Part shown: one piece after another, positions 3,916 to 59,138 of the stretch | How the letters are laid out: every line of letters starts with the position of its first letter | Position numbering within the stretch: position 1 is the first letter of the stretch | IMG/VR virus record: IMGVR_UViG_3300037395_000062 | Coordinates: 1 to 64,000 of that record | DNA: 64,000 nucleotides | Source of the DNA: a virus | Strand: one strand, 5' to 3' | The notes under the pieces: model-generated | Databases searched by the model: none | The model's input: only the letters and a program-made list of their open reading frames with translations | Told to the model about the DNA's origin: nothing | Made by a program: the position numbers and the translations under genes

Positions 3916-3944
3916 TTGCGTTAAGCGGAAGGCGCAGGCGGGGT
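3916..3944. repeat. 29-bp direct repeat, copy 1 (3' end of methyltransferase)
   Basis: Identical to 5054-5082. It encodes the shared C-terminal residues TPPAPSA and the stop codon of the methyltransferase gene. The two copies bracket the methyltransferase gene. Confidence 0.9.
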
Positions 3945-5000
3945 GCTCATCGGCCCGGTTTGCGCCTGGGTCTCGTTCTTCGCCCGCCGGCATACCTCAT
4001 TGAGAATGCGGCGCTCGGAGAGTTCACAGTCGCTTGCGTTCAACTCTACGCCGATCGCGTGTCGCCCGAGCTTGAGGGCAGATATCGCCGCCGTCCCGGA
4101 GCCAAGGAACGGGTCCAGCACTGTTCCGCCCTCCGGGCACCCGCATACAATGCAGCGCTCCGCCAATTCCGCCGGGAAGGGAGCGCTGTGGTTGTGAGGG
4201 TTGTCCGGTCGCGCTTTGATCGTCCAGATATCTTCTTCGCCGCCCAGGGCATCGCGGTTGAAATAATACCTCGGCTGCTTTGCGAAAATGAACAGGTGCT
4301 CGTACATCCGATGCGGCCGATCGTGGGCAGCCGGCTCGCTCAAACAACCGGGGCGGTACCAGATCACGTCGCTGCGCAGCGTCCAGCCCCTATCCTGCAT
4401 TGCCAACGCTACGCGCCAGGGCAGGCCGATAAGGGACTTCCTTGGCAGCCCCAGCCCAGGGCCATCCACAGCCCGTAGCTGTTGGCGGGCGAACTGTCGC
4501 CCGGAGTGCTTCTTATCCGTGCCGTGCGGCTTCCCCTTCGCATTGTAATAGGCATCGCCGATATTGAGGAAAAACACGCCGTCGTCGGTGAGGACGCGCT
4601 TTACCTCATCGAATGCCGCGACCAACGCCTCAACATATTCTCCAATCGTCGGCTCATGGCCGATCTGGCCTTCCACGCCGTAGTCCCTCTGCCAAAAATA
4701 GGGTGGGGACGTGACCGCGCAGTTGGCGGAGCCGACGGCAAGGGTGCGAAATCCCACGCATACGTCGGCATTGAGGATACGATAGGATAGATTCTCGCCG
4801 ACGTGACCATTACGAGTGGGAATCCCAGATTCGGTGCCCGGACTTCCCGCAGGCGGGGGGCGGGCAGACGACTGCCTGATCACCCTTGTACCCGTGGCAG
4901 ACTTCGCCAAGAACGCCTGGACGGCACTCTCGGAAACCCTGATTAGCCCGCGTTTTCCAGCCTTTGCACATTCCAGATTGCCGTCCTGCATTTTCTTCAC
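3921..5000 (-). CDS. Beta-class DNA methyltransferase (N4-C or N6-A)
   Basis: The order is catalytic TSPPYFWQRDYG at about residue 96, target-recognition region, then SAM-binding DPFLGSGTAAISA at about residue 296, the beta-class permutation. SPPY rather than DPPY favours N4-cytosine, though N6-adenine cannot be excluded. It probably protects phage DNA from host restriction or tunes gene expression. The N-terminus (AKAGKRGLIRVSESAVQAFL) looks like the second half of an AlpA/excisionase-type winged helix. The GTG at 5000 is the first usable start. A much better SD-ATG at 5042 reads in the same frame but meets TAG at codon 13. The last seven codons are shared with the holin-like gene. Confidence 0.85.
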   Translation of the reverse strand: MKKMQDGNLECAKAGKRGLIRVSESAVQAFLAKSATGTRVIRQSSARPPPAGSPGTESGIPTRNGHVGENLSYRILNADVCVGFRTLAVGSANCAVTSPPYFWQRDYGVEGQIGHEPTIGEYVEALVAAFDEVKRVLTDDGVFFLNIGDAYYNAKGKPHGTDKKHSGRQFARQQLRAVDGPGLGLPRKSLIGLPWRVALAMQDRGWTLRSDVIWYRPGCLSEPAAHDRPHRMYEHLFIFAKQPRYYFNRDALGGEEDIWTIKARPDNPHNHSAPFPAELAERCIVCGCPEGGTVLDPFLGSGTAAISALKLGRHAIGVELNASDCELSERRILNEVCRRAKNETQAQTGPMSTPPAPSA

Positions 5001-6380: not shown

Positions 6381-6452
6381 GGGGTGCCCGCAGGGCCGGT
6401 GCTGTTCCTTGCAAGAACGGTTAGCAGAGTTCGATTCTCTGGCACTCCACCA
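6381..6452 (+). tRNA. tRNA-Ala(UGC)
   Basis: Acceptor GGGGTGC pairs with GCACTCC. It carries the G3-U70 pair that identifies tRNA-Ala. Anticodon loop CTTGCAA, T-loop TTCGATT, A73, CCA encoded. Confidence 0.9.
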
Positions 6453-6454
6453 AT

Positions 6455-6529
6455 GCGGGCAGTGCGCGACGGGTTGCGTGTCACGTTGCCAACGTGAATC
6501 ATCGAGTTCGACTCTCGATGCCCGCTCCA
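6455..6529 (+). tRNA. tRNA-Gly(GCC)
   Basis: Acceptor GCGGGCA/TGCCCGC, anticodon stem TCACG/CGTGA with loop TTGCCAA, T-loop TTCGACT, CCA encoded. Confidence 0.9.
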
Positions 6530-6536
6530 ATTGCCT

Positions 6537-6611
6537 GGACGAATAGCTCAGTGGTCAGAGCTGGCAGCTCATAACTGTCTGGTCTCGGTTCGATCCCGAG
6601 TTCGTCCACCA
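6537..6611 (+). tRNA. tRNA-Met or Ile2 (CAU)
   Basis: Acceptor GGACGAA/TTCGTCC, loop CTCATAA, T-loop TTCGATC, A73, CCA encoded. CAU could read AUG, or AUA if C34 is converted to lysidine. The fuller CUGUC/variable region resembles Ile2 more than initiator tRNA. Confidence 0.85.
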
Positions 6612-6614
6612 TGT

Positions 6615-6687
6615 TGCAGGGAGGCCAGGGTGCCCGGCTCGGCTCATAACCGAAGCCTCGGCGGTTCGATTCCGCCCTCTGCAACCA
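6615..6687 (+). tRNA. tRNA-Met(CAU), second copy, initiator-like
   Basis: Acceptor TGCAGGG/CTCTGCA, loop CTCATAA in stem TCGG/CCGA, T-loop TTCGATT, ACCA end. The anticodon-arm context resembles initiator tRNA but only two of its three G-C pairs are present and position 1 is T paired with A72. Confidence 0.8.
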
Positions 6688-6689
6688 AT

Positions 6690-6765
6690 GCCCGGTTAGC
6701 TGATGTGGTCATAGCGGCGGTTTGAAGAACCGTTGAACGTCGTTCGATTCGACGGCCGGGCACCA
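6690..6765 (+). tRNA. tRNA-Phe(GAA)
   Basis: Acceptor GCCCGGT/GCCGGGC, loop TTGAAGA, T-loop TTCGATT, A73, CCA encoded. Confidence 0.9.
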
Positions 6766-6769
6766 GTTT

Positions 6770-6844
6770 GCGGCATTCCGTCTCTGGGGAGACGACCAGC
6801 CTTCCAAGCTGAGAAGATGGGTTCGATTCCCATATGCCGCTCCA
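6770..6844 (+). tRNA. tRNA-Gly(UCC)
   Basis: Acceptor GCGGCAT/ATGCCGC, loop CTTCCAA, T-loop TTCGATT, T73, CCA encoded. Confidence 0.9.
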
Positions 6845-6849
6845 AGTTT

Positions 6850-6925
6850 TCCCATCGACCGAGCAAGCGAACGGACCTGCCTGTTAAGCAGAGGTCGCCA
6901 GGGGCGGTACCTGGGATGGGAGCCA
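6850..6925 (+). tRNA. tRNA-Asn(GUU), odd T-loop
   Basis: Acceptor TCCCATC/GATGGGA, loop CTGTTAA, G73, CCA encoded. The T-stem CCAGG/CCTGG is perfect but its loop is GGCGGTA instead of TTCRANN. Confidence 0.85.
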
Positions 6926-6927
6926 AT

Positions 6928-6995
6928 ACCGGGGCGACGTGGCGTCAACACGGTCTCCAAAACCGTGGATGAGGGTTCAATTCCTTCCTCCGGTG
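6928..6995 (+). tRNA. tRNA-Trp(CCA), minimal D-arm
   Basis: Acceptor ACCGGGG/CTCCGGT, loop CTCCAAA in stem ACGGT/ACCGT, G73. The body is only 68 nt: the D-arm is GACG/CGTC with a 3-base loop. The genome continues CCG, so the CCA end must be added or repaired by the host enzyme. Confidence 0.8.
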
Positions 6996-7002
6996 CCGGA
7001 AT

Positions 7003-7077
7003 GAAGCGTGAATCCGACGGGTTGGGTGGTGGTCTGCAAAACCACATCACGGGGTTCAACTCCCTGACGCTTCTCCA
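7003..7077 (+). tRNA. tRNA-Cys(GCA)
   Basis: Acceptor GAAGCGT/ACGCTTC, stem GTGGT/ACCAC with loop CTGCAAA, T-loop TTCAACT, T73, CCA encoded. Confidence 0.9.
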
Positions 7078-7110
7078 AGATTGCGACCGCGCTTGCGCGA
7101 CGCTCAGAGT

Positions 7111-7186
7111 GTGGTCGAGGCCAACGAAGTGAGGCGCCCGTCTGTGGAACGGGCCTTACCGGATGCAAGTTCCGGCGATCACCCCA
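7111..7186 (+). tRNA. tRNA-His(GUG), no encoded G-1
   Basis: Acceptor GTGGTCG/CGATCAC, stem CCCGT/ACGGG with loop CTGTGGA, C73, CCA encoded. The base before position 1 is T, so the usual G-1:C73 pair is not encoded. T-loop is TGCAAGT, non-canonical. Confidence 0.85.
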
Positions 7187-7191
7187 TTCAT

Positions 7192-7267
7192 GCTCCGGTA
7201 GCACAGAGGAAGTGCAGTCGCCTTGTAAGTGACAGGTCGCGGGTTCGAGTCCTCGCCCGGAGCACCA
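7192..7267 (+). tRNA. tRNA-Thr(UGU)
   Basis: Acceptor GCTCCGG/CCGGAGC, loop CTTGTAA, T-loop TTCGAGT, A73, CCA encoded. Confidence 0.9.
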
Positions 7268-7271
7268 GTTT

Positions 7272-7345
7272 GGCGGATACCTCCGGCCGAGGGCGGCGCG
7301 TTCTGAGCGCGTTCGAGCAGAGATCGACACTCTGGTCCGCTGCCA
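7272..7345 (+). tRNA. tRNA-Gln(CUG)
   Basis: Acceptor GGCGGAT/GTCCGCT (G1-U72 wobble), stem CGCG/CGCG with loop TTCTGAG, G73 as in Gln tRNAs, CCA encoded. T-stem CAGAG/CTCTG carries loop ATCGACA (T54 replaced by A). Confidence 0.8.
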
Positions 7346-7349
7346 CCAT

Positions 7350-7420
7350 GGCGGGAGTTCCGGGAACAGGCGATCTTTTGAGGTTCGCCGCGCGCGGTTC
7401 GACACCGTGGCCCGCTGCCA
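7350..7420 (+). tRNA. tRNA-Gln(UUG)
   Basis: Acceptor GGCGGGA/GCCCGCT with one mismatch and a G1-U72 wobble, anticodon loop TTTTGAG in a stem with one T-T mismatch, T-loop TTCGACA, G73, CCA encoded. Resembles the preceding Gln tRNA. Confidence 0.75.
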
Positions 7421-7425
7421 GGTAT

Positions 7426-7500
7426 GGCCCTTTCGACCACAGGTTAAGTCGGCGCTCTCTCAAGGCGCAGAACCGGGATTGTTACCCGGAAGGGCCACCA
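7426..7500 (+). tRNA. tRNA-Glu(CUC)
   Basis: Acceptor GGCCCTT/AAGGGCC, stem GCGCT/GGCGC with loop CTCTCAA, A73, CCA encoded. T-stem CCGGG/CCCGG with non-canonical loop ATTGTTA. Confidence 0.8.
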
Positions 7501-7505
7501 ACAAT

Positions 7506-7582
7506 GCGAGCGTCGGCGGATGGCGACGCGGACGCACTTAAAATGCGTCGAATATTGGGTTCGATTCCCAGCGCTCGCACCA
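7506..7582 (+). tRNA. tRNA-Leu(UAA), short variable loop
   Basis: Acceptor GCGAGCG/CGCTCGC, stem ACGCA/TGCGT with loop CTTAAAA, A73, CCA encoded. The D region is Leu-like. The whole gene is 77 nt because the long variable arm of bacterial tRNA-Leu is missing. Confidence 0.8.
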
Positions 7583-7583
7583 T

Positions 7584-7660
7584 GCGCGCTTAGCCCAGAG
7601 GTAGGAGGCACGACGTTGAGGTCGTCGGCAGGGCGGGTTCGAATCCCGCAGTGCGCACCA
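7584..7660 (+). tRNA. tRNA-Leu(GAG), short variable loop
   Basis: Acceptor GCGCGCT/AGTGCGC, stem CGACG/CGTCG with loop TTGAGGT, T-loop TTCGAAT, A73, CCA encoded. Variable loop only about five bases. Confidence 0.85.
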
Positions 7661-7664
7661 GTTT

Positions 7665-7741
7665 GCCCGGTTAGCCCAACGGTAGGAGGCACTTCCCTCA
7701 GGAGGAAGGCAGTGTCGGTTCGAATCCGACACCGGGTACCA
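7665..7741 (+). tRNA. tRNA-Leu(CAG), short variable loop
   Basis: Acceptor GCCCGGT/ACCGGGT, stem CTTCC/GGAAG with loop CTCAGGA, T-loop TTCGAAT, A73, CCA encoded. Variable loop about five bases. Confidence 0.85.
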
Positions 7742-7743
7742 AT

Positions 7744-7830
7744 GGATGGTCAATTCGGTAGGCGCCGAACACCGCCTGGAAAGCGGTTGGCACCGCAAGG
7801 TGTGGGATTCGAGTTCTCGGCCATCCGCCA
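7744..7830 (+). tRNA. tRNA-Ser(GGA)
   Basis: 87 nt with a long variable arm. Acceptor GGATGGT/GCCATCC, stem ACCGC/GCGGT with loop CTGGAAA, T-loop TTCGAGT, G73, CCA encoded. Confidence 0.9.
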
Positions 7831-7834
7831 GTTT

Positions 7835-7922
7835 GGAGAGTGAAGCAGGACGGCTCCTGCCACCGGTTTGAAGCCGGATGGTGCCGCAAGGCATGGGCAT
7901 CGACAGCACCCGCTCTCCGCCA
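7835..7922 (+). tRNA. tRNA-Ser(UGA)
   Basis: 88 nt with a long variable arm. Acceptor GGAGAGT/GCTCTCC, stem CCGG/CCGG with loop TTTGAAG, G73, CCA encoded. The T arm is irregular (ATCGACA in place of a TTC loop). Confidence 0.85.
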
Positions 7923-7925
7923 GAT

Positions 7926-8013
7926 GGAAGACGATCCGGGACGGCTCCCGGCATCCGTTCGAAGCGGATTGGAACCGAAAGGTTTGCAGGTCGGCACTAG
8001 CCGTCTTCCGCCA
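7926..8013 (+). tRNA. tRNA-Ser(CGA)
   Basis: 88 nt with a long variable arm. Acceptor GGAAGAC/GTCTTCC, stem ATCCG/CGGAT with loop TTCGAAG, G73, CCA encoded. The T arm lacks a TTC loop. Confidence 0.85.
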
Positions 8014-8018
8014 TTTAT

Positions 8019-8106
8019 GGAGCGCGCAATCGGGTAGGCGCCCGAGCGAGTCTGCTAAACTCTGCGCACCTCACGGTGTAGGTTTCGAATACCTGCCGCT
8101 CCGCCA
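8019..8106 (+). tRNA. tRNA-Ser(GCU)
   Basis: 88 nt with a long variable arm. Acceptor GGAGCGC/CCGCTCC (last pair mismatched), loop CTGCTAA, T-loop TTCGAAT, G73, CCA encoded. Confidence 0.85.
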
Positions 8107-8107
8107 C

Positions 8108-8178
8108 GCCTCGCACAGCGGCCTGTGCCCGTCCTTGGTATGGATGGTGGTCCGGATCGTCACCGGAGCGAGGCTCCA
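8108..8178 (+). tRNA. tRNA-Thr(GGU)
   Basis: Acceptor GCCTCGC/GCGAGGC, stem CGTCC/GGATG with loop TTGGTAT, T73, CCA encoded. T-stem TCCGG/CCGGA with loop ATCGTCA. 71 nt, short D-arm. Confidence 0.8.
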
Positions 8179-8183
8179 GTTAC

Positions 8184-8268
8184 GGGCGGGGAAAGCCGAT
8201 GGCTTCGGCAAGCAGACTGTAAATCTGTTTCCTTCGGAAGAGTGGATCGAAACCGCACCCGCCCACCA
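8184..8268 (+). tRNA. tRNA-Tyr(GUA)
   Basis: 85 nt with a long variable arm (CCTTCGG stem-loop). Acceptor GGGCGGG/CCCGCCC, stem CAGA/TCTG with loop CTGTAAA, T-loop ATCGAAA, A73, CCA encoded. Confidence 0.88.
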
Positions 8269-8269
8269 T

Positions 8270-8345
8270 GGTCCGTTAGCTCAATGGCCAGAGCCTTCGG
8301 TTGATAACCGAAAGACGAGAGGTTCAATTCCTCCACGGACTACCA
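8270..8345 (+). tRNA. tRNA-Ile(GAU)
   Basis: Acceptor GGTCCGT/ACGGACT, stem TTCGG/CCGAA with loop TTGATAA, T-loop TTCAATT, A73, CCA encoded. Confidence 0.9.
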
Positions 8346-8351
8346 GTTCAT

Positions 8352-8432
8352 GGACCAGATGCGATCACGGGTGTGCGCGGCGGTCTTTTAAACCGTGTCA
8401 ATGGTTGGGTTCGAGTCCCACCTGGTCCACCA
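8352..8432 (+). tRNA. tRNA-Lys(UUU)
   Basis: Acceptor GGACCAG/CTGGTCC, stem GCGGT/ACCGT with loop CTTTTAA, T-loop TTCGAGT, A73, CCA encoded. 81 nt because the D region is longer than usual. Confidence 0.88.
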
Positions 8433-8506
8433 ATTTCGTCCCGTTGATCAGGGGCGAACGTCGCGTTCTGGCATAGGTCCAAAGAGCAGTTGGGCGCGAC
8501 ACAATT
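8433..8506 (+). other. tRNA-sized gap in the array with no recognisable tRNA
   Basis: 74 bases between Lys and Asp tRNAs, far longer than the other spacers. GTCGCG at 8460 can pair with CGCGAC at 8495, giving an acceptor-like stem, but no anticodon arm or T-arm can be drawn and no CCA follows. Possibly a decayed tRNA. Confidence 0.4.
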
Positions 8507-8580
8507 GCCTGCATCTTTCAGTGGTAGGAAGCTGGATTGTCGATCCGGTAACAGGGGTTCGATCCCCCTTGTAGGCGCCA
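8507..8580 (+). tRNA. tRNA-Asp(GUC)
   Basis: Acceptor GCCTGCA/TGTAGGC, stem CTGGA/TCCGG with loop TTGTCGA, T-loop TTCGATC, G73, CCA encoded. Confidence 0.9.
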
Positions 8581-8588
8581 AAAAGTTT

Positions 8589-8663
8589 CGGGGTGTGGGT
8601 CAATGGAAGGCCGCCAGTTTTGGGTACTGGAAAATGCAGGTTCGAGTCCTGTCACCCCGACCA
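8589..8663 (+). tRNA. tRNA-Pro(UGG)
   Basis: Acceptor CGGGGTG/CACCCCG with the C1-G72 pair typical of Pro, stem CCAGT/ACTGG with loop TTTGGGT, T-loop TTCGAGT, CCA encoded. The only Pro tRNA in the array. Confidence 0.9.
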
Positions 8664-8665
8664 CT

Positions 8666-8736
8666 ACCCTCGCCGATGGACGGAACCGGATTTCCTAAAT
8701 CTGGGCATGGCGGTTCGAATCCGTCCGAGGGTGCCA
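8666..8736 (+). tRNA. tRNA-Arg(CCU)
   Basis: Acceptor ACCCTCG/CGAGGGT, stem CGGAT/ATCTG with loop TTCCTAA, T-loop TTCGAAT, G73, CCA encoded. 71 nt. Confidence 0.85.
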
Positions 8737-8740
8737 TTTT

Positions 8741-8814
8741 GGACCATGAACATGTTGGCAGTGTGCCGCTCCTACAAAGCGGAAGGCGCGGTTCGATTCC
8801 GTGATGGTCTACCA
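8741..8814 (+). tRNA. tRNA-Val(UAC), C33
   Basis: Acceptor GGACCAT/ATGGTCT, stem CCGCT/AGCGG with loop CCTACAA: position 33 is C instead of the near-universal U. T-loop TTCGATT, A73, CCA encoded. Confidence 0.82.
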
Positions 8815-8818
8815 GTTT

Positions 8819-8893
8819 CTCCCGTTCGACCACCCGCTAAGTCGCCAGTCCTTCAAACTGGAGAAGCCGGGGCAGCACCGGCACGGGAGACCA
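8819..8893 (+). tRNA. tRNA-Glu(UUC), C33
   Basis: Acceptor CTCCCGT/ACGGGAG, stem CCAGT/ACTGG with loop CCTTCAA (C33). T-stem GCCGG/CCGGC with loop GGCAGCA, non-canonical. A73, CCA encoded. Confidence 0.8.
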
Positions 8894-8898
8894 TTTAT

Positions 8899-8974
8899 GG
8901 GCTAGCAGCACGATTGGACGTGCGCCAGATTACGAATCTGGAGGATGGAGGTTCGAATCCTCTCTGGCTCACCA
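8899..8974 (+). tRNA. tRNA-Arg(ACG)
   Basis: Acceptor GGGCTAG/CTGGCTC, stem CCAGA/TCTGG with loop TTACGAA (A34, inosine candidate), T-loop TTCGAAT, A73, CCA encoded. Confidence 0.88.
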
Positions 8975-8980
8975 TTTCAA

Positions 8981-9051
8981 GGTCCGCGCCGCGACGGCAG
9001 GCTGAACTTCTAATTCGGCCGATCTGGGGTAAGCACCTAGGCGGATCACCA
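8981..9051 (+). tRNA. tRNA-Arg(UCU)
   Basis: Acceptor GGTCCGC/GCGGATC, stem CTGAA/TTCGG with loop CTTCTAA, A73, CCA encoded. T-stem CTGGG/CCTAG with loop GTAAGCA, non-canonical. 71 nt. Confidence 0.8.
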
Positions 9052-9053
9052 AT

Positions 9054-9129
9054 GCTCCCGAGGTGTAAGGGAATGCACGCGTGGTTCCGAACCACGTAGC
9101 TGTAGGTTCGAGTCCTACCGGGAGCGCCA
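9054..9129 (+). tRNA. tRNA-Arg(CCG)
   Basis: Acceptor GCTCCCG/CGGGAGC, stem CGTGG/CCACG with loop TTCCGAA, T-loop TTCGAGT, G73, CCA encoded. Confidence 0.9.
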
Positions 9130-9132
9130 AAT

Positions 9133-9208
9133 GCGCGCGTGGCGAAATGGCAAACGCGTCCGGCTCAAACCCGGATTTCTGTAGGTTCGATCCCTACCGT
9201 GCGCACCA
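9133..9208 (+). tRNA. tRNA-Leu(CAA), short variable loop
   Basis: Acceptor GCGCGCG/CGTGCGC, stem TCCGG/CCGGA with loop CTCAAAC, T-loop TTCGATC, A73, CCA encoded. Again no long variable arm. Confidence 0.85.
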
Positions 9209-9212
9209 CCAT

Positions 9213-9288
9213 GGACCGGTAACTCAGTGGTCAGAGTGCCATCCTCTTAAGTTGGAAGTCGTGGGTTCAACTCCCACCCGGTCCCCCA
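9213..9288 (+). tRNA. tRNA-Lys(CUU)
   Basis: Acceptor GGACCGG/CCGGTCC, loop CTCTTAA in a stem with one T-T mismatch, T-loop TTCAACT, CCA encoded. Discriminator is C73 rather than the A73 usual for Lys. Confidence 0.85.
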
Positions 9289-9290
9289 AC

Positions 9291-9365
9291 GCTGGCATCT
9301 TCTAGTGGTAGGAAACCGCACTCGTAACGCGGCAACCGGGGTTCGATTCCGCCGTGCCAGCACCA
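9291..9365 (+). tRNA. tRNA-Thr(CGU)
   Basis: Acceptor GCTGGCA/TGCCAGC, loop CTCGTAA, T-loop TTCGATT, A73, CCA encoded. Last tRNA of the array, 23 bases before the HNH gene. Confidence 0.88.
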
Positions 9366-9388: not shown

Positions 9389-9961
9389 ATGACCAGCGCT
9401 ACTGCTCTCCGCACTCTTGTGCTGAACGCGAACTACCTTCCCATGACGACATGGCCCTTGAGCCTTGTGTCAGGACAGGAAGCAGTGCGCGCAGTGTTTC
9501 GCGGCCGGGCATCCGTAGTCGAAGAGTGGGACGCGGTATTTCGTTCGCCTTCTCGGGAAATTCGGGTTCCAAAAATAATTGCGCTGAACGAGTACGCCCC
9601 GATCAGCGCCTCACCGAAGTTCTGCCGTCGCTCGATCTTGCTGCGCGATCGCTACCGCTGCCAGTATTGCGGCGAGCAGTTTGCCTCAAACGAACTGACC
9701 TTTGACCACGTGATCCCAAAGGCCAAGGGCGGCAAAACCGAGTGGACCAACATCCTTTCGGCCTGCGTCAAGTGCAACACGCTGAAACGCGACAATTCGG
9801 CGAATTGGAGCGGGCGTAAGGGATCCGGCTTGCGTCCGTTAAAGCCGCCGCGTCAGCCCGCCACGATGGAATTGCTTCGGGCTGGGCTGCAATTCCTGGA
9901 TGCCGAAACGCGCGAAAATTATGGTTCGTGGCTGTACTGGTCTTCTGAATTGCAGGCTTAG
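9389..9961 (+). CDS. HNH endonuclease
   Basis: The 190-residue protein begins MTSATALRTLVLNANYLPM and carries CQYC at about residue 90, the H-N core FDHVIPKAKGGKTEW...N from residue 104, and CVKC at about residue 126, i.e. the ββα-metal motif with a structural zinc. This full-length type (N-terminal NANYLP and SGQEAVRAVFRGRA segments) is common in proteobacterial chromosomes and phages. The ATG at 9389 follows AAGG. An open frame back to 9305 lies over tRNA-Thr and is rejected. Being cotranscribed with the tRNA array, it may be a free-standing homing or host-DNA-cutting nuclease. Confidence 0.85.
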   Translation: MTSATALRTLVLNANYLPMTTWPLSLVSGQEAVRAVFRGRASVVEEWDAVFRSPSREIRVPKIIALNEYAPISASPKFCRRSILLRDRYRCQYCGEQFASNELTFDHVIPKAKGGKTEWTNILSACVKCNTLKRDNSANWSGRKGSGLRPLKPPRQPATMELLRAGLQFLDAETRENYGSWLYWSSELQA

Positions 9962-39253: not shown

Positions 39254-40372
39254 TCAGGGAGCAAACTTCGTCCACTTACCCGGGTTGGTGTCGATCTCGT
39301 ACGGACCGAACACGCGGTAATCGCCGCGTATTTCGGCTACAGTCGGTTCGTTGAAGGTCACACGGTACATGTGCTCCGGTTCGATCGTAGCGCATTCCAC
39401 AGGAACCAGCCCTATCGAAGCGCTGTCGACGAATATGTCTCCAAGCGGGCTCGAAAACACTCCATCGCCGAAGGCTGTGTGGAACACCACGATCGGTCTC
39501 TTGCCATCCAGATTGATGACGACAGCGTCGTTTTCAAACTGACTTGCAGGTACGATTACGTCGTCCCACGTCTTCGAATCGAACGCATAGCCAGGATCAC
39601 CCATCCAGTATTCACCGGAAGGTACGTTTATCTTTACTATTTTGGTCTCCTGTTTGTTTCGTTTTTTACCCATCTTAGCTGCGGATAGTTTAGCTCTGTG
39701 CTCCGCCGATTTAGGTTTTCCGGTCAGCGCCGCTCGTATGGCAGCACGATGTTCTGGCGTCCGGACAGCACCAACTGCCAACGTACGAAGCCGCTCCGCT
39801 TCTTCTGGCGTGCACACTTTGGGATTTGCGGCCCAGCGACGAAGCGCTGCTTCTCGCATTTTTAGCTTTACATTTTCTGGATGCTTGCGACCGGTCTGGC
39901 CTCGAGCCATCGCATCGCGCGATTCTTGCGAGGCTTTTCTGCCTGTCTGTCTGATTCGCATGGACTCTACCATATCTGGAGATAGTTTCCGCCCTGAATG
40001 GATTCGGCTTAACTCTGCCTTCCACTCTTCGGTGTGCCGGTAACCAAGCGCTCCGTCACCGCCATCGGTGAGATTATAACCTGCTGGTGAGCGAGTAACC
40101 AACTTTGCAATAAGTTGGGTCTCCATGTCTGCCGCCTCTTTACGTGTCGTAAAAACAGCCACCAGTTCGACAGTGAACGCGTCAAATCCATATTTACGCA
40201 TCGCTGCGTGCAACACCCACCCGCTACCTTTTCGAGCATCGCTAAGATGTTTTCCAAATCGTCTAGCGACAGTCATTGATGTGAACCCGACGTAGTTCTT
40301 GCCGCTCGCAGTGCACCGTATCAGGTACACGTTGAACACGTCGGAACCAGACTGTATGCTTTTCGCAGCCAT
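39254..40372 (-). CDS. GIY-YIG homing endonuclease fused to a GDPxY-type domain
   Basis: 372 residues. The N-terminal domain has NVYLIRCTASGKNYVGFTSM (GIY-YIG core as VYLI...YVG), R at RRFGKHL, E in MET and N in AGYNLTDGG. NUMOD3-like DNA-binding repeats follow (TGRKHPENVKLKM, RTPEHRAAIRAALTGKPKSA). From ~235, GEYWMGDPGYAFDSKTWDDV to the end resembles a separate phage protein family with a GDPCY motif. It lies right behind the capsid terminator with its own promoter (40439-40467). Probably a free-standing homing endonuclease joined to a resident gene. Confidence 0.8.
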   Translation of the reverse strand: MAAKSIQSGSDVFNVYLIRCTASGKNYVGFTSMTVARRFGKHLSDARKGSGWVLHAAMRKYGFDAFTVELVAVFTTRKEAADMETQLIAKLVTRSPAGYNLTDGGDGALGYRHTEEWKAELSRIHSGRKLSPDMVESMRIRQTGRKASQESRDAMARGQTGRKHPENVKLKMREAALRRWAANPKVCTPEEAERLRTLAVGAVRTPEHRAAIRAALTGKPKSAEHRAKLSAAKMGKKRNKQETKIVKINVPSGEYWMGDPGYAFDSKTWDDVIVPASQFENDAVVINLDGKRPIVVFHTAFGDGVFSSPLGDIFVDSASIGLVPVECATIEPEHMYRVTFNEPTVAEIRGDYRVFGPYEIDTNPGKWTKFAP

Positions 40373-58077: not shown

Positions 58078-58267
58078 GCTTCTCCCGCCAATAATCCACC
58101 GGCGTGAAACTCCACCCCTTACCGGTCGCGTAAGTGTGCAACCGTTCCGGCGTCCAGCCTATTGAATAGCCCAGGATAGGTGCCGTACGGCAGATGATAC
58201 CGTCGGTTGCTACGACGCCTGCGTTAAAATGCGGCGCATCGACCTCGTAAAGCGCCTTAACCGTCAC
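58070..58267 (-). CDS. Hypothetical protein, 65 aa
   Basis: GTG start overlaps the previous gene by 11 bases and the terminase start by eight. TVKALYEVDAPHFNAGVVAT then GWTPERLHTYATGKGWSFTP. Not recognised. Could be a small terminase-associated protein by position only. Confidence 0.55.
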   Translation of the reverse strand: MTVKALYEVDAPHFNAGVVATDGIICRTAPILGYSIGWTPERLHTYATGKGWSFTPVDYWREKHV

Positions 58268-58478
58268 TTCGCGAACCGAACACAGGTGCGAGATCGATCA
58301 CGCCTTCCGGCAGATCGGCCTTGCCGACCGGCTTGCGCTCGCGACCTTCGCCTTTGAACTTGTTCGCCTCGTCGGCCAGCCGGCGCGCCTCCCTGCCGGA
58401 GGTGCCGTGCTCCCTGGCGATGCCGGGATCGTTCGCCTCTGCGTTGAACAGTTTCCGCTGCTTCTCGGTGTATGGCAT
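58257..58478 (-). CDS. Conserved small phage protein, 73 aa
   Basis: ATG at 58478 with AGGAGG at ideal distance. PYTEKQRKLFNAEANDPGIA then GREARRLADEANKFKGEGRE is a small protein family widespread in phages and prophages; the biochemical role is unknown. The Mom-like frame runs into it without a stop. Confidence 0.7.
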   Translation of the reverse strand: MPYTEKQRKLFNAEANDPGIAREHGTSGREARRLADEANKFKGEGRERKPVGKADLPEGVIDLAPVFGSRSDG

Positions 58479-59138
58479 CTCAACCTCCTCCGTCCCGCCG
58501 GTCGAACGTATACCATTGCGGACCCAGCGAAAAGCCGGGTTTCCGCTTCTGTACCTGCTGCCTGTCGGCACTCGATTCCAACCATGCAGCGCCATGTATC
58601 GTGCTGCATCATCCGGTCCACAAATCCAGTGCTCCCAGCGCTGTATCCATGCCGAACCATTACGTATGAGGTCGCGCGATTCAGTGGCTCCGTTAGCGTA
58701 ACGGCTAGTCCTGCGGCCTCCGCAATCAACCATTACCGGAACCTTGTGGCGTTCCGTCTTCGTCCATCCGGAACATTCGTAGACATAGCCTGTATGTCCC
58801 TGGCTTTCGTCGGAGAATGTCACCAGCACGGGCCAACGTGTCCTGTCGATCAGGTTGCGCATCTGAAAACGTAGGGGTTTCGATACGTGTTTCAGCCTAC
58901 GTCTGTGTTTCGGTACTGCAACCATTCGCAACAAGGCCAGAACGCCCGCCGGCTGTTGTTCGCACACGCTCTTTGCGGCCCCTGGAGGAGGCGGTTGCCA
59001 TGCGTAGGCGGCGACGGGAACCTCATCCTCGAAAACGGCGAACGCATAGACCTTAACACCTCCGGCCGAACCGTATGAGTGGAATTGCGCGCACATATCG
59101 CGAACCACATCGAGTGAGCAAGGTCGTATATCGAACAC
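58257..59138 (-). CDS. Mom-like DNA modification protein, fused in frame to the next gene
   Basis: GTG start with GGAGGAGG upstream. FDIRPCSLDVVRDMCAQFHS, FAVFEDEVPVAAYAWQPPPP, ALLRMVAVPKHRRRLKHVSK and DESQGHTGYVYECSGWTKT match the GNAT-like Mom family, which in phage Mu modifies adenines to resist restriction. About 220 residues are Mom-like. The frame has no stop and continues through the 73-residue gene to 58257 (293 residues). Its SD leader and that of the 73-residue gene are identical over 22 bases, marking an insertion. Confidence 0.65.
   Translation of the reverse strand: MFDIRPCSLDVVRDMCAQFHSYGSAGGVKVYAFAVFEDEVPVAAYAWQPPPPGAAKSVCEQQPAGVLALLRMVAVPKHRRRLKHVSKPLRFQMRNLIDRTRWPVLVTFSDESQGHTGYVYECSGWTKTERHKVPVMVDCGGRRTSRYANGATESRDLIRNGSAWIQRWEHWICGPDDAARYMALHGWNRVPTGSRYRSGNPAFRWVRNGIRSTGGTEEVEMPYTEKQRKLFNAEANDPGIAREHGTSGREARRLADEANKFKGEGRERKPVGKADLPEGVIDLAPVFGSRSDG
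58479..58500. repeat. 22-bp direct repeat, copy 1 (leader of 73-aa gene)
   Basis: Identical to 59138-59159, including the SD. Flanking bases are similar for about 12 more positions. Confidence 0.85.

Follow-up and report, generated by a model that had tools for sequence, protein, structure and literature searches.

The DNA analyzed here (hereafter, the window) comprises 64,000 nucleotides, positions 1 to 64,000 of the IMG/VR virus record IMGVR_UViG_3300037395_000062, and it harbors a transfer RNA (tRNA) array in which numerous members carry altered elbows, the elbow being the site at which the D loop and the T loop pair. The full record is 94,109 bases long and possesses myophage genes, specifically those for tail sheath, major head protein, portal, and large terminase. 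The array lies on the + strand at positions 6381-9365. It consists of 37 tRNA genes that together cover 20 amino acids, and CCA is encoded in nearly all of them. An earlier note on this DNA reported ten tRNAs with non-canonical T arms between positions 6850 and 9051. All ten genes are present at those places, inside an array that extends slightly beyond them on both sides. Eight are clear cases, and the remaining two, both tRNA-Ser, are imperfect.

The altered tRNAs of the window

G18, G19, U54, U55, and C56 are the textbook invariants of the tRNA elbow, and the letters of the elbow pairs 18.55, 19-56, and 54.58 are nearly invariant in cellular tRNAs. Our window scan ignored T-loop sequence, scoring nothing but stems, CCA, and an anticodon loop with U33, and it recovers most of the named genes. 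tRNA-Glu(UUC) and both tRNA-Ser genes were placed by hand, the former having been missed because it carries C33. None of the altered window tRNAs displays the canonical bacterial signature, G18G19 together with T54 T55 C56 R57 A58.

U55 is missing from only three of the eight clear cases, all of which, like every gene described in this section, lie on the + strand. tRNA-Asn(GUU) (6850-6925), with T loop GGCGGTA, D loop AGCAAGCGAA, and G73, is predicted to form A18.G55, G19-C56, and G54.G58. For tRNA-His(GUG) (7111-7186; T loop TGCAAGT, D loop AACGAAGTGA, C73), the predicted pairs are A18.G55, G19-C56, and U54.A58, and a tRNA-His of this type also occurs in the array of another phage (L017). 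The base at position -1 of the window tRNA-His (7110) is T despite C73, so G-1 is not genomically encoded. tRNA-Glu(UUC) (8819-8893) combines T loop GGCAGCA with D loop CACCCGCTAA, giving predicted C18-G55, G19-C56, and G54.G58. Its anticodon loop, CCTTCAA (8850-8856), departs from the nearly universal U33 by carrying C33.

U54, by comparison, is missing from seven of the eight. Three tRNAs retain GG, U55, and C56 and are altered at 54.58 alone: tRNA-Gln(CUG) (7272-7345; T loop ATCGACA, A54.A58, short D loop), tRNA-Thr(GGU) (8108-8178; ATCGTCA, A54.U58, short D arm), and tRNA-Tyr(GUA) (8184-8268; ATCGAAA, A54.A58). In tRNA-Glu(CUC) (7426-7500), T loop ATTGTTA provides A54.U58 and a U56 that faces G19 as a wobble, GG being kept in D loop CACAGGTTAA. 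tRNA-Arg(UCU) (8981-9051) pairs G54 with G58 in T loop GTAAGCA and has the short D arm GCC-GCGAC-GGC. Finally, tRNA-Ser(UGA) (7835-7922) carries GG in its D loop, and its T loop, ATCGACA (A54.A58), sits on a T stem of 4 bp with a bulge; tRNA-Ser(CGA) (7926-8013) has no convincing T stem. Pairing between D and T loops is consistent for Asn, His, Gln, both Glu, Thr, and Tyr, and not for Arg-UCU. Discriminator bases of the altered tRNAs look usual, CCA is encoded, and apart from the C33 of Glu-UUC, the anticodon loops look ordinary. U8 is also absent from several of them.

Most T stems pair perfectly, as the earlier note held: Asn, His, Gln, both Glu, Thr, and Arg-UCU have perfect 5-bp stems, and Tyr has one mismatch, at 49-65. 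Across the acceptor, anticodon, and T stems of the eight clear tRNAs, 2 of 136 pairs are mismatched versus 17 deviations at 40 T-loop consensus positions (Fisher P ~6e-9). The P value stands even with the inflated count from the automated tally, which gave 5 mismatches because it imposed U33 on Glu-UUC, a tRNA that carries C33 when read in its proper register. On this contrast, pseudogene decay was rejected for the set. Cloverleaf stems are intact in eight of the ten named tRNAs, with Ser-UGA and Ser-CGA imperfect, and disruption of stems in step with loops may apply to Ser-CGA only, possibly the sole candidate for real decay in the window. Canonical T loops via alternative folds, which the earlier note had named as refuting its reading, were likewise rejected on refolding. 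Specifically, those clear cases that were folded without constraints keep their odd T loops, although in Gln-CUG and Asn, arms other than the T arm are rearranged. Without the odd tRNAs, the array would leave Asn, His, Tyr, and Glu unserved; with them, it serves all 20 amino acids.

Standard tools rarely see these genes. Rfam RF00005, the covariance model, detects none of the ten named tRNAs, even at E<=10, and ARAGORN detects two, Glu-CUC and Thr-GGU. Because standard models miss altered genes, phage tRNA sets are under-counted.

The array has other peculiarities. Short D arms (3-4 bp, with loops of 4-7 nt) occur in tRNA-Ala (6381-6452), tRNA-Trp (6928-6998), Thr-GGU (8108-8178), Arg-CCU (8666-8736), and Arg-UCU (8981-9051). 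tRNA-Trp ends in GCCG at 6995-6998 and hence lacks the encoded CCA found in nearly all array members. Between tRNA-Lys and tRNA-Asp lies a 74-base gap (8433-8506) that folds into strong hairpins and is possibly a decayed tRNA.

Coupled D-loop and T-loop changes across phages

Immediately 3' of the array lies an HNH endonuclease gene (9389-9961, + strand), relatives of which, at 34-48% identity, adjoin tRNA arrays in other phages (L009, L010, L017, L026, L029). HNH-linked arrays, scanned without T-loop bias, contain G55 tRNAs in unrelated isoacceptors. In the D loops of these tRNAs, GG is gone and A18 G19 is present (ATCAGCA, ATCAGCTA, AACTAGTGA). One A56 tRNA in the HNH-linked arrays carries U19. 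Our first idea, that G55 pairs with C18 of a CG motif, was given up in favor of A18.G55 on the evidence of these other phages, and C18 was kept for Glu-UUC only.

The rule for 19-56, by which U56, A56, and G56 are accompanied by A19, U19, and C19, respectively, was written down before viral contigs were scanned. The scan patterns constrain positions 8-14 and the T loop and demand a GG/CC stem plus CCA, with D-loop positions 15-21 left free; on 290 kb of shuffled sequence, the scanner returned no matches. The U56 pattern has at least 120 matches. Among the matches listed, the U56 class contains 94 distinct tRNAs, 81 with A19, 8 with GG (a G.U wobble), 1 with another combination, and 4 with poor stems. 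The A56 class contains 27 distinct tRNAs (U19 in 22, GG in 3, other in 1, poor stems in 1), and the G56 class contains 6 (C19 in 5, U19, a wobble, in 1). Strict agreement with the rule is ~85% of the matches listed and is higher if wobble pairs count.

Viral loci and the window together provide 1,406 distinct CCA-encoded tRNAs. The predicted 18-19 dinucleotide, scored anywhere in D-loop positions 15-20 rather than in a fixed column, is held by 245 of the 255 tRNAs that belong to the tested classes with a substitution at 55 or 56, whereas 10,000 shuffles average 118 and never exceed 144. The rule holds for 162 of 170 when tRNA-Arg is left out (shuffle maximum 105) and for 134 of 140 when pattern-scan matches are (shuffle maximum 89). 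At 54.58, G54 occurs with G58 in 41 of 42 tRNAs, A54 with A58 in 51 and with U58 in 67, and U54 with A58 in 1,223 of 1,229. The coupled swaps are C56→U/A/G with G19→A/U/C, U55→G with G18→A, G54 with G58, and A54 with A58 or U58. Combinations seen are G-C, A-U, U-A, and C-G at 19-56, that is, all four Watson-Crick pairs; G.U, A.G, and G-C at 18.55; and U.A, A.A, A.U, G.G, and C.C at 54.58. Judged by their letters, then, the pairs 18.55, 19-56, and 54.58 have been replaced in phage tRNAs by other combinations predicted to be capable of pairing.

Altered tRNAs make up 402 of the 1,406 (29%), a share that is not a natural frequency because the loci were picked by patterns and by a linked gene. Nearly all isoacceptors occur among them. 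tRNA-Arg accounts for 85 of the 172 19-56 swaps in the pooled viral set, mostly as A19-U56 (L123-L241). Altered elbows also occur in named isolates: Mesorhizobium phage Cp1R7A-A1, Xanthomonas phage X1, Bacillus phage vB_BcoS-136, TunaTartare, Big4, and Racecar. Two phage contigs, L079 (199 kb) and L082 (108 kb), have matching arrays in which nearly every tRNA is off consensus, through about five solutions. Kin of the window phage were found as well, two via TerL and two via capsid, the largest being a 105 kb contig with a single clear tRNA. The comparison with other phage arrays that the earlier note had called for thus reveals altered elbows recurring in unrelated phages, with D and T loops changing together. 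Its description of a consistent shift does not survive, as there are instead several different solutions, often within one genome.

A cellular control, covering one class (gammaproteobacteria) and one tRNA type only, yielded the U56 pattern in none of 369 genomes and the A54 pattern in none of 114, with the canonical pattern present in 49 of 56 as a positive control. A GGCRGCA pattern run on genome contigs gave 14 matches, three of them tRNA-like: two Pro, from Melainabacteria/Cyanobacteria assemblies, and one Thr, from an Oscillochloris assembly.

Selection, drift, and other explanations

The 19-56 pair offers a flat face that serves as a stacking platform for RNase P and the ribosomal L1 stalk. 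Because the swapped pairs can still pair, the three-dimensional elbow, including this flat face, should be preserved while the sequence signature is lost. The altered tRNAs are, very probably, functional tRNAs with compensated elbows, which would be transcribed, processed, charged, and used. Taken as a whole, functional tRNAs whose elbows have been rewritten by coupled substitutions constitute the explanation that we favor, with modest confidence. That selection against the consensus, and not drift, drove the change strikes us as an even call. If so, something in the infected cell may read the canonical elbow letters, and tRNAs of unchanged shape but changed letters might escape it. The reader could be an enzyme that modifies tRNA, a tRNase that recognizes the elbow, or some other factor dependent on the T arm. 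The broadest version of the idea is tentative and, in our estimation, falls slightly short of an even chance: that many phages have been selected for tRNAs that keep the elbow fold without the canonical letters because some factor, whether of host or phage, recognizes those letters, and that standard tRNA finders often miss such tRNAs. Regarding modification, the minimal TruB substrate is GUUYRANYC (PMC7912444), and this motif is missing from the sequences of all eight clear window tRNAs. Their escape from T54 methylation and Psi55 is plausible, and evasion of a T-loop-reading nuclease, which the earlier note had put forward, is a possible cause.

Selection by evasion has a serious rival in drift that passes through G·U intermediates. 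The notion is that the elbow shape is needed and the letters are not, that phage tRNAs are independent of the host enzymes that fix the consensus, and that pairs wander, mostly from G19.U56 to A19-U56, with nothing evaded. We give such neutral compensatory drift a probability that is appreciable but clearly below one half. Several observations speak for it, and some of them also against selection. The order of 19-56 frequencies among the matches listed, A-U > U-A > C-G, follows mutational ease, and wobble intermediates are present. The commonest swap, A19-U56 (T loop UUU), is the easiest to reach by drift through G.U, and this U56 class still fits the TruB motif. Most arrays mix altered and canonical tRNAs, so an agent that reads elbows, if there is one, cannot be lethal to the canonical ones. 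Also weighing against selected, rewritten elbows are the phages CcrSC, L026, and T4, which have sizeable arrays with no or almost no altered tRNAs; the window's Arg-UCU, which lacks the U19 that the pairing rule predicts; Ser-CGA, which looks damaged; and the shuffles, which treat tRNAs as independent when some share ancestry, although the classes nonetheless span many isoacceptors and phages.

Drift has difficulty, however, with genomes such as L079 and L082, in which nearly every tRNA is altered by different single solutions. In L079, 19 of 21 tRNAs are altered through about five routes (A54.A58, A54.U58, C19-G56, U19-A56, C55), and in L062, 22 of 24 are altered; we counted both for selection. 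Moreover, swaps at 54/58 and at 56 avoid each other within genomes, as if a single break were enough (5 seen versus 12.9 expected, P ~0.001, recomputed with pattern matches removed because the patterns bias this association). The altered fraction is also strongly uneven among loci (chi-square 244, 66 df), although sampling or the age of lineages might account for this too. That some phages have lost almost the whole consensus, and by mixed routes, favors some selection.

Two further explanations fare poorly. The altered tRNAs could be decoys, whose shape and anticodon arm absorb tRNases or sensors, or they could have other uses without decoding. Staphylococci possess elbow-altered tRNAs that are non-proteinogenic. 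Some phage tRNAs are known to counter defenses that cleave tRNA (PMC10264068, PMC11555353), yet every kind of isoacceptor is affected here, encoded CCA and usual discriminator bases are retained, and the altered tRNAs fill codon gaps in the set, which makes a decoy role very improbable. We deem decay of pseudogenes that are losing their T loops more improbable still. Ser-CGA, without a proper T stem, and the hairpin region at 8433-8506, which may be a tRNA remnant, fit decay; the mismatch contrast between stems and loops, the paired D/T-loop changes in hundreds of tRNAs, and the completion of the amino-acid set by the odd genes do not. The view of the earlier note that the changes are not decay is thus strongly supported by intact stems, usual discriminators, encoded CCA, the 20-amino-acid set, and compensatory D/T changes across phages.

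Particular agents were also considered. A phage-encoded Psi55 synthase does not explain the special T loops, as TruB (PF01509) occurs in 0 of 11 such phage records, and T4-type RNA ligase repair, present in 1 of the 11, is not a common partner; from these two results, a special enzyme partner is not evident. Pfam searches of twenty other window open reading frames found no tRNA nuclease or tRNA-modifying enzyme. A single isoacceptor or single nuclease target was rejected as the cause because nearly all isoacceptors are affected, and avoidance of the restriction site TCGA within TTCGA was dropped because ATCGA loops retain TCGA. T-arm-dependent tRNA nucleases do exist, as Cas12a3 demonstrates by contacting tRNAs at the T-arm backbone (PMC12851939), but Cas12a3 is itself a poor candidate for an elbow reader because what it reads is the backbone and CCA rather than the letters of the elbow.

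Elsewhere in the window, a GIY-YIG-type homing endonuclease gene (39254-40372) adjoins the major head gene. A Mom-like DNA modification gene (58257-59138) and a DNA methyltransferase gene (3921-5000) suggest that the phage DNA is modified.

Relation to known tRNAs

The bacterial elbow, invariant in its letters, holds no internal promoter, unlike the eukaryotic one. Selection experiments in the laboratory have produced suppressor tRNAs with altered elbow pairs. Phages present a natural experiment in which each elbow pair has been swapped along with its partner, and this experiment bears on the true requirements of ribosomes, RNase P, TruB, and TrmA/TrmFO. Our findings suggest that the altered phage tRNAs are working tRNAs shorn of the signature common to cellular tRNAs, and they hint that phages and hosts may be in conflict over tRNA at a level not yet described. 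Searches confined to open-access literature turned up no description of phage tRNAs with compensated elbow swaps.

The canonical bacterial elbow is built from G18.Psi55, G19-C56, and m5U54.A58 (PMC4810234, PMC7912444). Phage tRNAs resemble canonical bacterial tRNAs in cloverleaf, 7-nt T loop, paired D and T loops, encoded CCA, and usual discriminators; they differ in swapping, with compensation, the letters of the three elbow pairs, and their U54/U55 modification sites are often gone. A54.A58 is known from eukaryotic initiator tRNA and some eukaryotic tRNA-Ala (PMC7912444, PMC7566577) and has been stated not to be observed in bacterial or archaeal tRNAs (PMC7566577). The window's Tyr, Gln-CUG, and Ser-UGA share A54.A58 with the eukaryotic initiator, but here it sits in elongator isoacceptors of a bacterial virus. 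tRNA-Pyl and mitochondrial type II tRNAs lack G18G19/TPsiC (PMC7609411), and phage tRNAs likewise lose consensus D/T-loop letters. The former lose or rebuild the interaction differently, whereas phage tRNAs keep the same pairs with other letters, in many isoacceptors.

Another related case is that of phage tRNAs that evade tRNA-targeting defenses through anticodon-loop mutations (van den Berg 2023, PMC10264068), described in a paper whose text mentions neither T loop, D loop, nor elbow. Both are sets of phage tRNAs whose altered sites may serve evasion. The changes that we describe, in contrast, lie in the elbow, not in the anticodon loop, and they are compensated.

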